DNA from: Stenotrophomonas maltophilia
GTDB lineage: Bacteria; Pseudomonadota; Gammaproteobacteria; Xanthomonadales; Xanthomonadaceae
Reading direction: 5' to 3'
DNA: 64,000 nt
NCBI RefSeq assembly: GCF_002799155.1
Contig: NZ_NERD01000002.1
Coordinates: 3,224,001 to 3,288,000, forward strand
Of this stretch, positions 48,121 through 62,012 are shown piece by piece. Positions within the stretch are counted from its first letter, which is position 1. Each line of letters starts with the position of its first letter. The position numbers were made by a program, and so were the translations under genes. The notes beneath the pieces are model-generated. The model ran no database searches and was not told the origin of the DNA. It saw nothing but the letters and a program-made list of their open reading frames with translations.

Positions 48121-49233
48121 TCAACCGTAGCCGCCGTGCACCGGGTTGTGACTGCGCACGGCCATCACCAACCCGAAACCGGCCAGCAGCGATACCGCCG
48201 AGGTTCCACCGTAGCTGATCAGCGGCATCGGCACGCCCACTACCGGCAGCAGGCCGGAGATCATCCCGCCGTTCACCAGCACGTAGACGAAGAACGCCAG
48301 GCCGGTGGCGCCGGCCAGCAGGCGCGAATAGGAATCGCGCGACTGGCTGGCAATCCACAGGCAGCGCCCGATCACCACCAGGTACAGCGCCAGCACGGTG
48401 GCCACGCCGATCCAGCCGAATTCCTCGCTCAGCACCGAGAACGCGAAGTCGGTGGTCTGTTCGGGAATGAAGTTCAGGTGCGACTGCGAGCCCTCGCCCC
48501 AGCCCTTGCCGTCGAAGCCGCCGGAACCGATCGCGATCTTCGACTGGATGATGTTCCAGCCGGCCCCGAGCGCATCCATCTCCGGGTCCAGGAACATCAT
48601 GATGCGGTCCTTCTGGTACGGCCGCAGCAGCCAGAACCAGGCCACCGGAGCGACCGCCGCGACGCCGCCCACGCCCAGACCGACCCACCACCATGGCAGG
48701 CCCGCCAGCAGCAGCACGAACACGCCGCTGGCGGCGATCAGCACGCCGGTGCCAAAGTCCGGCTGCAGCATCACCAGGCCGGTGGGCACGCCGATGATGA
48801 CCAGCGCGGTCAGCACGGTACTGAAGCGCGGTGGCAGCGGCATCTTGTGCAGGTACCACGCCACCATCATGGGCAGGCTGACCTTCAACAGCTCGGCCGG
48901 CTGCAGGTAGAAGAATTTCAGGTCCAGCCACTGCCGGCCGTACTTGCCGGTGCCGAGCACGAACACCGCCAGCAACGGGATCATCGAGATCGCGTAGATC
49001 ATCGGCGTGGCCGAGCGGATGCGCAGGATCGGTACCCTCGAGATGCCCCACAGCGCGGCCATGCCCACCGCGAAGCGCACGCCCTGGGCCATCACCAGGC
49101 CGTCGCCACCGGCGCTCTTCAAGGTGGCCAGGCCAATCACCATCAGCGCGCCCAGGGCGAGGCACAGCACCCAGTCCAGCGTGCTGAAGAAGCGGCGCAG
49201 CATGTCGCCGGCCCAGCGCAGGAACACTCTCAT
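48121..49233 (-). CDS. rodA: Rod shape-determining SEDS glycosyltransferase RodA
   Basis: 370 residues, about ten transmembrane helices. Polymerises peptidoglycan glycan for cell elongation with PBP2 (mrdA). Family text: GTGKYGRQWLDLKFFYLQPAEL, QPDFGTGVLIAASG, QSKIAIGSGGFDGKGWGEGS, EQTTDFAFSVLSEEFGWIG with the catalytic Asp, and VPMPLISYGGTSAVSLLAGFG (split here for length). Start overlaps the mrdA stop (ATGA at 49230-49233), and order mreBCD-mrdA-rodA is the standard elongasome operon. Confidence 0.95.
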   Translation of the reverse strand: MRVFLRWAGDMLRRFFSTLDWVLCLALGALMVIGLATLKSAGGDGLVMAQGVRFAVGMAALWGISRVPILRIRSATPMIYAISMIPLLAVFVLGTGKYGRQWLDLKFFYLQPAELLKVSLPMMVAWYLHKMPLPPRFSTVLTALVIIGVPTGLVMLQPDFGTGVLIAASGVFVLLLAGLPWWWVGLGVGGVAAVAPVAWFWLLRPYQKDRIMMFLDPEMDALGAGWNIIQSKIAIGSGGFDGKGWGEGSQSHLNFIPEQTTDFAFSVLSEEFGWIGVATVLALYLVVIGRCLWIASQSRDSYSRLLAGATGLAFFVYVLVNGGMISGLLPVVGVPMPLISYGGTSAVSLLAGFGLVMAVRSHNPVHGGYG

Positions 49234-51305
49234 CGTGCGGGCTCCGCGGGGGTCGGGCGCGGCGTGGCCGGCAGCGCGGCGGCGGCCGGCGTTCCCGGCT
49301 GCGGTGCGGGCGCGGGTTCGGGCGCAGGCACGCCGACCAGCACCGGATGCTCACCCAGCTGCGCCGCGGCGAGGTCACCCGCCTGGCGCGCGCCCACATC
49401 TTCGTTGTCGAATGCAGTGGCGCCGATGGCGGTGGTGCCGCGCTCGCTGTCCAGCGGCTGCATGCCTTCGGGCATCTTGCCGAGCAGGTAGGCGTCGAAC
49501 ACCTTGCGGGCGATCGGCGCGGCCGCGGCGCCGCCGTAACCACCGCCCTCCACCGCGATCGCCAGCGCGATCACCGGCTGGTCCACCGGCGCAAAGCCAA
49601 CGAACAGCGCGCGGTGGCGCAGGTGCATCGGCAAGCTCTTGGGATTCACCGCGGCGGTGCCCTTGCGGCTGATGACCTGCGCGGTTCCGGTCTTGCCGGC
49701 CATCGTGTACGGAGCGCCGGCCGCCATGCGTGCGGCACTGCCGCCAGGCAGCATGGTGGCCATCATGCCTTCGCGCACCGCCTGCAGGTTGTTCGGGTTC
49801 GGGCTGATCGGCTTGCTCTCGCCCGGGTCGGTCGCCACCCAGTCATGGTCGAACCCCGCGCGCTGCTGGATCACCAGATGGGGCGTGCGCAGCTGCCCGT
49901 CGGCCAGTCCACTGACACCCCGCGCCAGCTGCAGAGGGGTGACCTTCCAGTCGCCCTGGCCGATGCTGATGTTGACCGTGTCGCCGGGGTACCAGGCTTC
50001 CTTGCGGCTCTTCCGCTTGTAGGCCGGCGAAGGCAGGATGCCGCCGATCTCGCCGGTCAGGTCGATCCCGGTCGGCTGGCCGAAGCCGTAGTACTCCATG
50101 TAATGGTCGAAACGCTCGATGCCCAGGTCCAGCGCCAGCTTGTAGTAGTACGTGTTGACCGACTGCGCGATGGATTTGCGCAGGTCGGTCCAGCCATGGC
50201 CGCCGCGGTGCGAGTCACCCCAGCCGCGCGAAGTACCGGGCAGGTAGAACATGCCGGTGGAAAGCACTTTGTCTTCGGGCCGGCGCACGCCCGAATCGAG
50301 GCCGGCCAGTCCGATCAGCGGCTTCAACGTGGAACCGGGGGCGACGCCACCCAGCACCAGGCGGTTGAACTGCGGCCGCGAGGGATTGTCGTTCAGTGCC
50401 TTGAAGTCGGCATGCGAAATGCCGTTGACGAACAGATTGGGGTCATAGGATGGCAGGCTGACCATCGCCAGCACTTCGCCGGTACGCGGGTCCATCGCCA
50501 CCGCCGAGCCTTCCTGGTCGCCGAAAGCGGCCACCATGGCGCGCTGCAGGTCGGCGTCGATCGACAGTCGCAGGTCGGCACCGGACTGCGCGGCGACACG
50601 GCCGATGGTGCGGATCGCACGGCCCTGCACGTTGGTCTCGACCTGCTCGTAGCCGACCTTGCCGCGCAGCTGCTGCTCGTAGTAGCGCTCCAGGCCGGAC
50701 TTGCCGATGTGGGTCAGCGCGGCATTGCCTTCGCCGAGAATCTCCAGGTCCTTGTCATCGACGCGGCCGACGTAGCCGATGATGTGCGCGAACAGATCGC
50801 CATACGGGTAGCGGCGGGTCAGGTAGGGCTCCAGCTCGACGCCGGGGAAGCGCCAGCGATCAACCGCGAAGCGCGCCATCTCCTCGTCGCTCATGCGCAG
50901 CTTCAGCGTGACCGGCAGGAACTTGCGGCGCGCCTTGCGCGACTTGTTGAACGCTTCCAGCTCTTCCGGGCTGATGTTGATGATCTTCGCCAGCCCTTCC
51001 AGGGTGGCGTCCATGTCCTTGACCTTGTCCGGAGTCACGTCCAGGCGGAAGGCCGGCACGTTCTCGGCCAGCAGGCGGCCGTTGCGGTCGTAGATCATGC
51101 CGCGCCCGGGCACCACCGGCCGCGGCTTGATGCGGTTGGCTTCCGAGCGCGTGGCGTAGACGTCATGGTCCAGCACCTGCAGCTTGAAGTACCAGCCACC
51201 CAGGCCCAGCAGGCAGACCAGCACGCCCAGGAAGCCCAGCGCCGCGCGACGGCGGAACTGTTCGGCTTCGGCGTGCGGGTTCTTGACCTGGCGGCGCGGG
51301 ATCAT
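49230..51305 (-). CDS. mrdA: Penicillin-binding protein 2, elongation-specific transpeptidase
   Basis: 691 residues. One N-terminal transmembrane helix (about 25-45), pedestal domain (about 50-260), then the transpeptidase: SxxK in GVAPGSTLKPLIGL, SxN in IAQSVNTYYYKLAL and KTG in MAGKTGTAQVISRKG. Crosslinks peptidoglycan in the elongasome with RodA. The extreme C-terminus (about 640-691) is an Ala/Pro-rich tail beyond the usual domain end (E. coli PBP2 is 633). It follows mreD after a 3-base gap. Confidence 0.96.
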   Translation of the reverse strand: MIPRRQVKNPHAEAEQFRRRAALGFLGVLVCLLGLGGWYFKLQVLDHDVYATRSEANRIKPRPVVPGRGMIYDRNGRLLAENVPAFRLDVTPDKVKDMDATLEGLAKIINISPEELEAFNKSRKARRKFLPVTLKLRMSDEEMARFAVDRWRFPGVELEPYLTRRYPYGDLFAHIIGYVGRVDDKDLEILGEGNAALTHIGKSGLERYYEQQLRGKVGYEQVETNVQGRAIRTIGRVAAQSGADLRLSIDADLQRAMVAAFGDQEGSAVAMDPRTGEVLAMVSLPSYDPNLFVNGISHADFKALNDNPSRPQFNRLVLGGVAPGSTLKPLIGLAGLDSGVRRPEDKVLSTGMFYLPGTSRGWGDSHRGGHGWTDLRKSIAQSVNTYYYKLALDLGIERFDHYMEYYGFGQPTGIDLTGEIGGILPSPAYKRKSRKEAWYPGDTVNISIGQGDWKVTPLQLARGVSGLADGQLRTPHLVIQQRAGFDHDWVATDPGESKPISPNPNNLQAVREGMMATMLPGGSAARMAAGAPYTMAGKTGTAQVISRKGTAAVNPKSLPMHLRHRALFVGFAPVDQPVIALAIAVEGGGYGGAAAAPIARKVFDAYLLGKMPEGMQPLDSERGTTAIGATAFDNEDVGARQAGDLAAAQLGEHPVLVGVPAPEPAPAPQPGTPAAAALPATPRPTPAEPAR

Positions 51306-51308
51306 GGC

Positions 51309-51794
51309 TCAGCGCCCGCGCTTGCCGAATCGCACCGCGTCCAGCAGCACGAACACCAGCGGCCACAGGCCCATGCCCAGTAGCGGTGCCCACCAGTACG
51401 ACCACGGCAGGGTGGGTTCACCCACCAGGATGTGCACCAGCGCGCTGACGATGCGGTCGTTGAACAGCAGGCCGCCGATGGCCAGCATCTGCTGCGACAT
51501 CGGGAAGAAGCGGATGCGGGCGCGGAAGCGCTGCAGGATGAAGGCCAGCATCACCAGCCGCAGCGCCTGTTCGCCGAGCACGCCGCCGTACAGCAGGTCG
51601 GCAACCACGCCGCTGGCGAAGGCGATGCCCAGGCCGACGCGCTCGGGGGCTTCGATCACCCAGTACGCCAGCACCAGCGCCAGCCAGTACGGGCGCAACG
51701 GCTGCAGCAGCGCCGGCAACGGCAGCAGGCCCAGCAGCAGCGCCACCACCAGGCTGGCCGGCAGCACCCACGGATTGTCGCGCAGGCGGCTCAT
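51309..51794 (-). CDS. mreD: Rod shape-determining protein MreD
   Basis: 161 residues, five to six transmembrane helices. Family text includes PYWLALVLAYWVIEAPERVGLG (in part) and GVVADLLYGGVLGEQALRL with the conserved Asp. Inner-membrane partner of MreC in the elongasome. Start overlaps the mreC stop by four bases (ATGA). Confidence 0.93.
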   Translation of the reverse strand: MSRLRDNPWVLPASLVVALLLGLLPLPALLQPLRPYWLALVLAYWVIEAPERVGLGIAFASGVVADLLYGGVLGEQALRLVMLAFILQRFRARIRFFPMSQQMLAIGGLLFNDRIVSALVHILVGEPTLPWSYWWAPLLGMGLWPLVFVLLDAVRFGKRGR

Positions 51795-53029
51795 CGCTGG
51801 GCCTCCGGCTGCGGCTGGGTGGGTTGCGGTTGCAGGCCAGCGGCCGGCACTACCGTAGAGCCGGCTGGAGTGGAGCCCCCTTGTTGTTGAAGGGGGCGCG
51901 CCGACGGCGCGGGGTTAAGGGAGGATGCGGGGGCAACCGGCTTCGTCGAAGACGGAGCCGGTTGCCGGCCAGCGGCCGACGCTACCGGAGCGCCGGCTGG
52001 GGGAGAGCCCCCCTCTTGTTGAGGGGGGCGCGCCGAAGGCGCGGGGGTAAGGGAGGATGCGCGGGCCGGTTGCGCCGAAGGTGCGGTCGGCTCAAGGGGA
52101 CGCGCCGAAGGCGGGGGGTTAAGGGAGGGTGCGGGGGCCGGTTGCACCGAAGGTGCAGTCGGCTGCAATTCGCTGGCCGCAGGCAAGCGAATTGCCGCCC
52201 CCGGGCGCAGCAGCAGCACGTCGCGACCGCGGTCGAGCTGCGCCGCCGGCTTCAGTTCGCCGACCAGGAAAGCATGGGTATCGTCCGGGCGCAGGCCGGT
52301 GATGGTGCCGACCGGGAAGCCGGCCGGGAAACGCCCGCCGAGGCCGGAGGTGACGATCTCATCGCCCACTTCCACCCCGGCGCTGAGCGGAATGTCGCGC
52401 AGCTCCAGCGTGTCGCCGCGACCGTAGACGATCAGGCGCACGCCGTTGCGGGCCACGGTGACCGGCACCGCGTGGTCGGGGTCGGTCAGCAGCAGCACGG
52501 TGGAAGTGCCGCCGGTGACGCTGATCACCTGCCCCATCAAGCCGCCGGCATCGATCACCGCCTGGCCGACGTGCACGCCCTCGCGGGTACCTGCATCGAG
52601 CACCAGGCGTTGCTTCACCGGGTCCAGGTCGATATCCAGGATCGGCGCCAGCTGCACGTCCAGGCCACTGCGCTCGGCCACATTCAGCAGTTCGCGCAGC
52701 TGGGCGTTGTCCAGCGCGGCGGTCTGCAGGCGGGTCAGGCGCGCGTTGGCCAGCAGCAACTGGTTGCGCAGTTCGCGGTTCTCGGTCACCAGCTGGGTGT
52801 GGCTGGCGGCGGAATCCTTCACCTGGTTGCCGAGTTTGCCGGGCAGGCCAGCCAGTGCCCATACCGGCTGCACCAGGCTGTTGGCCTGCTCGCGCAGGCG
52901 CGCCAGCCAGCCGGCCTGGTCGTCGAGCACGATCAGGGTGATGGCCAATGCGAGATAAGCCAGCAACCGCAAGGGGCTGGCGGCATCACCGGATCGGGAA
53001 GCGACGGGAGGACCGGCGTAGGGCGGCAC
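51791..53029 (-). CDS. mreC: Rod shape-determining protein MreC with a repeat-derived C-terminal tail
   Basis: 412 residues from GTG 53029. One transmembrane helix (about 22-40), coiled coil (about 65-105, AASHTQLVTENRELRNQLLL), and the beta-domain core (about 110-275: GLDVQLAPILDIDLDP, GTREGVHVGQAVID, VTSGLGGRFPAGFPVGTI). MreC links cytoplasmic MreB to PBP2 in the periplasm. The core ends near residue 280. The last 130 residues are a Pro/Ala/Ser/Gln tail containing a 44-residue unit twice (ASSLTPAPSARPPQQ and ASSLNPAPSARPLQQ) plus a partial third. The DNA of each unit includes a GTAG REP (51831-51853 and 51963-51985), so the tail is translated intergenic-type repeat. Most MreC proteins end soon after the core. 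Confidence 0.93.
   Translation of the reverse strand: MPPYAGPPVASRSGDAASPLRLLAYLALAITLIVLDDQAGWLARLREQANSLVQPVWALAGLPGKLGNQVKDSAASHTQLVTENRELRNQLLLANARLTRLQTAALDNAQLRELLNVAERSGLDVQLAPILDIDLDPVKQRLVLDAGTREGVHVGQAVIDAGGLMGQVISVTGGTSTVLLLTDPDHAVPVTVARNGVRLIVYGRGDTLELRDIPLSAGVEVGDEIVTSGLGGRFPAGFPVGTITGLRPDDTHAFLVGELKPAAQLDRGRDVLLLRPGAAIRLPAASELQPTAPSVQPAPAPSLNPPPSARPLEPTAPSAQPARASSLTPAPSARPPQQEGGSPPAGAPVASAAGRQPAPSSTKPVAPASSLNPAPSARPLQQQGGSTPAGSTVVPAAGLQPQPTQPQPEAQR
51831..51985. repeat. GTAG REPs inside the mreC coding tail, 132-bp period
   Basis: Two REP copies, TGCAGGCCAGCGGCCGGCAC plus TAC at 51831-51853 and TGCCGGCCAGCGGCCGACGC plus TAC at 51963-51985, reading GTAG on the coding strand. Each belongs to a unit of about 104 bases that continues through AGGGGGCGCGCCGA and TTAAGGGAGGATGCG; the units start 132 bases apart, which keeps the reading frame. 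Confidence 0.85.
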
Positions 53030-55419: not shown

Positions 55420-55448
55420 ACCGAACTGCCCGCGCATCTGCTCGGTGG

Positions 55449-55526
55449 GTGTCGACCTTGGTCGACACGCTGTGCTCTGGCAGGTGCCGACCCTGGTCGG
55501 CACTGCCGGCCAGCGGCCGGCACTAC
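55449..55526. repeat. Three GTAG-family REP hairpins
   Basis: GTGTCGACC/GGTCGACAC at 55449-55468, GTGCCGACC/GGTCGGCAC at 55484-55503, and TGCCGGCCAGCGGCCGGCA plus CTAC at 55504-55526. The last overlaps the stop of the HAD gene by four bases. Confidence 0.85.
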
Positions 55527-56146
55527 CCCCTGCGCTGCCAGGCGGCCAACAGGTCGCGGCAATCAGCGAAATGCCAGTCAGCGTGGTCCGGCCACGGGTT
55601 CTCCGGCAGGTTGACCAGCACGGTGTGGGTGCCCGCGGCGCGGCCGCACTCCAGGTCGTAGGCGTGGTCTCCGACCATCACCGCCTCCGCAGCCCCGATT
55701 CCCCAGCGACGAAGGTGCTGCTGCAAGCCATCCGGCGACGGCTTGGGTACCGCCTCGTCGCGGCCGATGATGTCGGCATCGTCGAACAACGCCCCGACCC
55801 CGATCGCGTCCAGCGTCAGCTTCGCCAATGCATGATCGTTGCGGGTCAGGATGCCCAGCCGGCAACCAGCCTCCGCCAGCGCGCGCAGCAGCGCCACCGC
55901 GCCCGGCGCCGGGAGCGCGTCCTCGGCCAGCGCACGTTCGTGATCCAGCAACCACTCCCGCTTGGCCTGCGCCGGTGCGTCCGGCAGCGCTGCGATATGG
56001 TCGAGGATGTCTTCCTCGGCCGCGATCTGCAGCGCGCGGCGGATCGCGGCGAAATCATGCACGGCCACCGTCAGCGTGCCGTCCATGTCGAACACCCAGT
56101 GCCTGATCGCGGACAACGCGTGCACTGCGCTGCCCGTCGCGATCAT
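55523..56146 (-). CDS. HAD-superfamily phosphatase
   Basis: 207 residues from MIATGSAVHALSAIRHWV; the start overlaps the stop of the preceding lipoprotein gene (TGATG at 56144-56148). HAD motifs: I in VFDMDGTLT, II in LGILTRNDHAL, III Lys in DEAVPKPSPDGL and IV in MVGDHAYDLECGRAAG. The layout is that of the phosphoglycolate-phosphatase/Gph-like group with a helical cap; the substrate is not known. Cytoplasmic. Confidence 0.85.
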   Translation of the reverse strand: MIATGSAVHALSAIRHWVFDMDGTLTVAVHDFAAIRRALQIAAEEDILDHIAALPDAPAQAKREWLLDHERALAEDALPAPGAVALLRALAEAGCRLGILTRNDHALAKLTLDAIGVGALFDDADIIGRDEAVPKPSPDGLQQHLRRWGIGAAEAVMVGDHAYDLECGRAAGTHTVLVNLPENPWPDHADWHFADCRDLLAAWQRRG

Positions 56147-61899: not shown

Positions 61900-62012
61900 T
61901 GCCGGCCAGCGGCCGGCACTACCATCGATCATCAGGGTAGGTGCCAACCTTGGTTGGCACGGATGCGTCAGCGCAGGCGGCTGGCCCTGTGCCAACCAAG
62001 GTTGGCACCTAC
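61900..62012. repeat. Three GTAG-family REPs, two in opposite orientation
   Basis: TGCCGGCCAGCGGCCGGCAC plus TAC at 61900-61922; GTAG plus GTGCCAACCTTGGTTGGCAC at 61937-61960; GTGCCAACCAAGGTTGGCAC plus CTAC at 61989-62012. The last two are inverted copies 28 bases apart and can pair over 24 bp. They separate the convergent iron-permease-like gene and the efflux outer-membrane gene. Confidence 0.88.

Follow-up and report, generated by a model that had tools for sequence, protein, structure and literature searches.

In both Stenotrophomonas and Xanthomonas, the C-terminal tail of MreC is probably encoded by a translated spacer, that is, a loosely constrained stretch with two fixed ends that takes in the intergenic repeats of its lineage. 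The tail DNA carries in-frame repeats that have copies dispersed in the genome, its ends are fixed, it shows the signature of a translated sequence, and the stems of its repeats differ within shared flanks. The gene, which codes for a cell-shape protein, is described here from 64,000 nt of Stenotrophomonas maltophilia DNA (contig NZ_NERD01000002.1), the whole of which is called the window, and from the mreC loci of other Stenotrophomonas genomes, of Xanthomonas and of the wider family. The features of the window that concern the tail are as follows.

51309..51794, minus strand: mreD, named from gene order
51791..53029, minus strand: mreC, 412 aa, GTG start
51791..51794, minus strand: ATGA overlap of the mreC stop and the mreD start
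51803..51806, minus strand: GGAG, putative Shine-Dalgarno (SD) motif of mreD within the final mreC codons
51794..52204, minus strand: tail of 137 codons, variable and rich in Pro/Ala/Gln, without predicted secondary structure and with low pLDDT
51799..51930, minus strand: 132-nt unit, copy closest to the stop codon, 80% identity to the other copy
51831..51853, minus strand: GTAG REP (SMAG type), in frame, 1 mismatch to the consensus, encodes VVPAAGL(Q)
51874..51928, no strand assigned: element B, a second dispersed repeat with two hairpins, from a genome self-search
51931..52062, minus strand: 132-nt unit, upstream copy, 80% identity to the other copy
51963..51985, minus strand: GTAG REP (SMAG type), in frame, 2 mismatches to the consensus, encodes VASAAGR(Q)
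52006..52063, no strand assigned: element B, second copy
52024..52164, minus strand: 72-nt tandem duplication, 2 copies
52090..52124, no strand assigned: element B, third and incomplete copy, a weak match at E 0.14
52208..52633, minus strand: conserved MreC barrel domain PF04085, residues 133-274, Pfam E 6.5e-40

The barrel domain scores 136.7 bits (Pfam cut-off 28), and the core of the protein is 100% identical over 276 residues to the nearest named core, that of S. maltophilia D457. A gene model preferred an alternative start at 52948. Proteins of the MreC family have a membrane helix at the N-terminus and a coiled coil ahead of the barrel, and AlphaFold (low-confidence model) places helices at residues 19-39 and 65-120. 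Since PF04085 ends at residue 274, positions 51794-52204 form a tail outside the conserved domain. It is 411 nt long, from 52204 to the stop codon, and rich in Pro, Ala, Gln and Ser; AlphaFold predicts no secondary structure for it, with pLDDT mostly 34-50 (pTM 0.27, 31 sequences), a model that weakly suggests disorder. The protein encoded downstream (49230-51305, minus strand; PBP2-like, named from gene order) also has a Pro/Ala-rich C-terminal tail.

The downstream end of the tail lies at the junction with mreD. Across 90 Stenotrophomonas loci the overlap is ATGA in 86, GTGA in three and GTAA in one (L087). GGAG is conspicuous at -16 to -13 within the final 30 nt of mreC, and a putative SD motif occurs in the 18 nt preceding the overlap at 72 of 88 Stenotrophomonas loci, against 303 of 4400 random 18-mers from the tails. 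In other genera the motif precedes mreD at 19 of 20 loci; in the wider family it is less regular (13 of 19). Between the mreC core and this putative signal, length changes come in threes. In L087 (genome G002), the core reads on into an open frame of 653 residues, which closes with GTAA and lacks the ATGA overlap; a frameshift in the assembly or in the gene is the probable cause.

The first-pass annotation had the window's tail coded by 132-bp units, each holding a GTAG REP. Two such units exist, each with one in-frame REP, but there are only two, and they are followed by the 72-nt repeat. Both REPs were compared with the consensus GTAGTGCCGGCCGCTGGCCGGCA, which at up to three mismatches matches the window seven times and 100 shuffles of it not at all. 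When the tail was searched against its own genome, at least 49 rows came back in addition to the match of the whole tail to itself, the best at E 1.8e-18 and one being the reverse strand of the tail. The number is a lower bound, since scores were computed for 40 of the 226 candidates. The matches are of two kinds, GTAG REPs and the ~60-nt element B. Of the 411 nt, about 46 nt are REP and 113 nt element B, with a further 35 nt in the weak third copy. An Rfam search of the window gave nothing that reached the gathering threshold.

Where such repeats lie elsewhere was examined in a 464-kb sample, about a tenth of the genome, made up of 20 evenly spaced 20-kb stretches and the window, the latter added on account of its mreC; a home-made codon-based caller found 393 genes in it. 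The sample holds 82 REP sites (up to three mismatches, seven REP forms), of which 75 are intergenic, five partially overlap a gene and two are wholly intragenic, these last being the pair in the mreC tail. Outside the window none of 56 REP sites is wholly intragenic (52 intergenic, four partial). The earlier view that REPs are rare in coding sequence is thus borne out in this sample. By sequence the mreC pair belongs to the GTAG REPs, but its location is not extragenic. The same annotation had described the other REPs as confined to intergenic DNA, and this holds for most sites, including those at 61900, which is intergenic, and at 502, which starts 8 nt past the end of a called gene. The third example does not fit: the REP at 55504-55526, a perfect SMAG match, shares 4 nt with the end of a called gene, and its GTAG seems to provide the TAG stop codon. 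With a looser detector, which accepted every perfect GT[AG]G hairpin, the count was 69 sites (61 intergenic, three partial, five intragenic), as against 12 in shuffled sequence; the five intragenic sites are unlike the REP families and are taken to be chance. SMAG REPs are numerous, with 90 matches to the GCCGCTGGC-stem pattern in genome G000.

Element B occurs at about ten other places in the genome, and none of the seven other copies examined overlaps a called gene; the codon-based caller was used here, plain ORF lists being ambiguous around these copies in such GC-rich DNA. Matches to element B or similar sequences (E <=1e-4) are present in 82 of 91 Stenotrophomonas genomes, with up to 16 per genome when tail copies are counted. 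In G066, G073, G019, G020, G038, G053 and G045, element B lies ~2.4 kb upstream of mreC, a spot that by the gene order of the window is just beyond a sugar-kinase-like gene adjoining mreB, and in G045 there are five tandem copies. At the matching spot of the window (55420-55530) two GTAG/GTGG REPs stand in place of element B. The upstream copies might have supplied the mreC tail as a nearby donor.

An mreC match was found in all 91 Stenotrophomonas genomes. Two genomes were left out, G054, in which mreC is cut, and G067, where the match lies 152 nt from the end of a contig, and 88 of 90 loci were analysed, omitting L087 for its odd read-through frame and L098, a second copy in G008. Tail length ranges from 32 to 183 residues, and tail sequence varies widely despite near-identical cores. 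REPs are carried by 58 of the 88 tails, 95 in total, from none to six per tail. The first-pass annotation had proposed aligning mreC 3' ends in search of variable-copy and tail-less forms, and had set against its own reading a tail common to all relatives; copy number does vary, nearly tail-less relatives exist (see later), and the tails differ. Its suggestion that a unit of 44 codons keeps the frame does not carry over, as there are only two units in the window and many species have a single REP.

All but four of the tail REPs (91) are in sense orientation. The antisense REPs are limited to three related loci (L055, L069 and L072), where they encode ADGQRPSLP and sense REPs are found as well. 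Each of the 91 sense REPs starts at a codon boundary, mostly with GTA, and the other stop-free frames are unused. Most begin GTAGTG or GTAGCG (82/91, the remaining nine being variants); GTAGAG, which would read Val-Glu, is found in none of the 91, and is frequent among the genomic copies of three REP types, among the matches listed. As a second sense frame is also free of stops, the constant frame needs an explanation: either all descend from a single insertion, or the peptide is under selection.

The tails hold several REP stem types, four of which encode VVPAAGRQ, VVPSHARQ, VVPGSARQ and VAPTVGRP. Among close relatives, stems that differ yet are each internally paired sit within the same flanks when L068 is compared with L074, L065 and L066 with L067, L061 with L071/L073, and L052 with L056. 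These differences point more to replacement of the stem-loop than to stepwise mutation. On a tree of core sequences, from which L110 was left out (a locus of another genus, with a frame lacking an ATGA or GTGA end), at least 10 changes of REP presence are required and, among REP-bearing tails, at least 17 of REP type. The 30 REP-free tails comprise 18 outside the REP-bearing group (L076, L080-L086 and L088-L097) and 12 within it. Four genomes of the outside set, G051, G055, G076 and G087, have 481-620 copies of one REP type, yet their mreC is without a REP.

The REP type of the tail is the commonest of four counted types in the host genome in 36 of 52 entries, a degree of matching reached in none of 20,000 permutations that ignored relatedness. 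In phylogenetically independent pairs the match between tail and host type was not significant, with too few informative cases. Exceptions are L051, L052, L058 and L059, where the tail type has two to six copies in the host. Tail REP type may thus follow host REP abundance.

In Xanthomonas the repeat is a different one. The mreC tail of the Xanthomonas-like genome G153 contains (GGGAWTS)n units, and a 320-kb sample of that genome has 13 heptamer arrays, of which 11 are intergenic, one is in the mreC tail and one is right where another called gene starts. The called mreC start of G153 likewise has a heptamer array 10 nt ahead of it (L226:13176-13203), so that there repeats are found at both ends of mreC. 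Paired heptamers occur in 15 of 21 tails of other genera and in no cores, and are absent from the 88 analysed Stenotrophomonas tails. Among named Xanthomonas records, several of which share a species, the GGGANTN heptamer is in 22 of 30 tails and none of the 30 cores, leaving eight tails without it, and it was found in one of 48 named Stenotrophomonas tails. The heptamers encode glycine/serine and proline runs. Other genera examined have Pro/Ala-rich tails without GTAG REPs, and four members of the wider family are nearly tail-less, with five to nine residues after the core; the 20 members compared were a non-random choice, taken for having short or long tails. The original description of the tail as built from GTAG REPs is therefore not supported: REPs are a minority of the window's tail, 30 of 88 Stenotrophomonas tails are free of them, and in many Xanthomonas tails the intergenic repeat is another one. 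REP-free, Pro/Ala-rich tails in relatives indicate that the REPs probably entered an already existing tail.

Could the REP instead be kept as a hairpin upstream of the mreD ribosome site, tuning mRNA decay or the stoichiometry of mreC and mreD, and sit within the gene for want of intergenic space? Several results are in keeping with such a role. The inner 6-bp stem is fully paired in 82 of the 95 tail REPs despite differing stem sequences, hairpin pairing probability is at least 0.5 in 44 of 53, and the predicted fold is more stable in tails with a REP than in those without (mean z -1.07 and -0.43, respectively; p 0.016, 88 tails). The distance from the last sense REP to the end of the stop codon is exactly 30 nt in 29 of 58 tails, although this spacing may be shared descent. 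REP sites also differ less between 23 close pairs (23/523, against 270/2825 other tail sites), a figure that is biased because REPs were detected by similarity to the consensus. Stem pairing, spacing, low divergence and folding could reflect function, or recent arrival and homogenisation. Against a hairpin role, 30 of 88 tails do without a REP, the Xanthomonas repeat is not a REP, both REPs of the window are mismatched in a region that folds no better than shuffles (z 0.26), and exposure of the ribosome site in REP tails is not clearly different (p 0.087). This explanation is considered unlikely.

The tail evolves as a translated sequence. In 19 independent close pairs, its dN/dS is 0.40 in the coding frame, compared with 1.11 and 1.98 in the shifted frames, while that of the core is 0.03, and none of 42 aligned tail blocks is out of frame. 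The pairs were aligned as DNA, with blocks of at least 24 nt, dN/dS being taken from blocks at least 80% identical; a protein-guided alignment gave a tail dN/dS of 0.35 from 24 overlapping pairs, a biased choice of similar tails, and the value of 0.40 was used in its place. The frame-specific dN/dS and the lack of frameshifted blocks argue that the tail is translated and weakly constrained, and to speak of no constraint is too strong, since dN/dS is below 1. With the REPs inside the reading frame as well, the proposal that repeat DNA had turned into protein holds.

These values could also be read as signs that the tail peptide is adaptive, a Pro/Ala/Gln-rich periplasmic arm with a length or motifs that would help MreC to contact the cell wall or partners, and for which the repeats were raw material. 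The use of one of two stop-free sense frames by all sense REPs, and the absence of GTAGAG, would agree with this. However, both length (32-183 residues) and sequence vary between species with near-identical cores, relatives with tails of five to nine residues exist, and the tail has no predicted secondary structure, albeit in a weak model (pTM 0.27). An adaptive arm is thought improbable.

A mis-called stop or an untranslated tail is ruled out by the frame-specific dN/dS. Chance or low-complexity similarity is ruled out by the shuffles and by two control tails searched against their own genomes, a REP-free Stenotrophomonas tail with two weak other matches (best E 0.001) and a Lysobacter-like tail with 24 weak matches, none better than E 1.9e-4. 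The tails are GC-rich and of low complexity, and chance sites in genes do turn up when hairpins are sought loosely, but with no matches in the shuffles, no strong matches in the controls, frame-specific dN/dS and no frameshifted blocks, it is scarcely credible that a chance Pro/Ala stretch resembles REPs or that an untranslated region was called coding.

The translated spacer, loosely constrained between two fixed ends, remains the preferred explanation. As mreC and mreD overlap at ATGA, the DNA between the MreC domain and the mreD ribosome site would have to stay open and in frame, and so be read as a disordered tail that is presumably periplasmic. Repeats, namely GTAG REPs and element B in Stenotrophomonas and G-rich heptamers in Xanthomonas, would enter and persist there because the tail is nearly free to vary, and would then duplicate in multiples of three. 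The REP stem-loop may be overwritten in place by other REP types, probably through recombination with copies elsewhere in the genome. The constant REP frame may reflect one ancestral insertion and not repeated entry, and the ATGA overlap is a putative cause of the mreC hot spot.

A broader reading, put forward tentatively and with somewhat less than even confidence, is that the mreC 3' end of Stenotrophomonas and Xanthomonas is a standing entry point at which between-gene repeats have repeatedly turned into protein, the tail following the repeat families of its host. If true, repeats at other genomic sites, whether selfish or structural, and a portion of an essential protein evolve together. 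With a single gene whose tails span ~5 to ~200 residues over scores of species, nature provides a tractable series in which to see how intergenic repeats become protein and to ask whether gene overlap turns spacers into repeat sinks, with the REP-free and nearly tail-less relatives as ready controls. A further suggestion from the series is that one REP stem type can take the place of another even within a coding region.

Intragenic REPs are already known. In the main text of Di Nocera et al. 2013 (PMC3733652), GTAG/CGTC REPs are reported inside genes and read as protein, S. maltophilia included, with the tRNA pseudouridine synthase A and B genes as examples from that species; REP clusters encode 43-82 residues in Thauera and R. 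conorii, and REPs that supply a gene's stop codon are also reported. The name mreC does not occur in that main text and may stand in its supplementary gene list. Compared with the REPs described there, those of mreC are spread through most of a genus, swap their stems at a single site and share the tail with another repeat family, and the tail of another genus holds a different repeat. The SMAG consensus given for S. maltophilia in the main text of PMC2613905 is GTAGTGCCGGCCGCTGGCCGGCA, the same as that of the tail REPs, and SMAG loci are described there as varying in tandem copy number, and at one locus another GTAG family has taken the place of a SMAG dimer; that text contains none of the terms mreC, coding and in-frame. 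The heptamer of Xanthomonas mreC tails corresponds to the published GGGAATC heptamer, (GGGANTN)n, which the main text of PMC4692102 places 89% and 93% in intergenic DNA in two genomes, with no occurrence of mreC. A literature search gave no title on the mreC tail among the matches listed, and a hot spot common to two genera, with unrelated repeats and stem swaps, was not found in the literature searched.

A parallel can be drawn with the Rickettsia palindromic elements (RPEs), palindromic repeats that, going by the main text of PMC3733652, lie in frame in many protein genes, as the tail REPs do in mreC. In mreC too, the repeats are read without a stop and the gene is under protein-level selection. 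A spread across unrelated genes was not seen here, as no other called gene of the 464-kb sample contains a whole REP of the seven forms. RPEs are found in many unrelated genes, whereas mreC is a single gene end that collects different repeats in each lineage.
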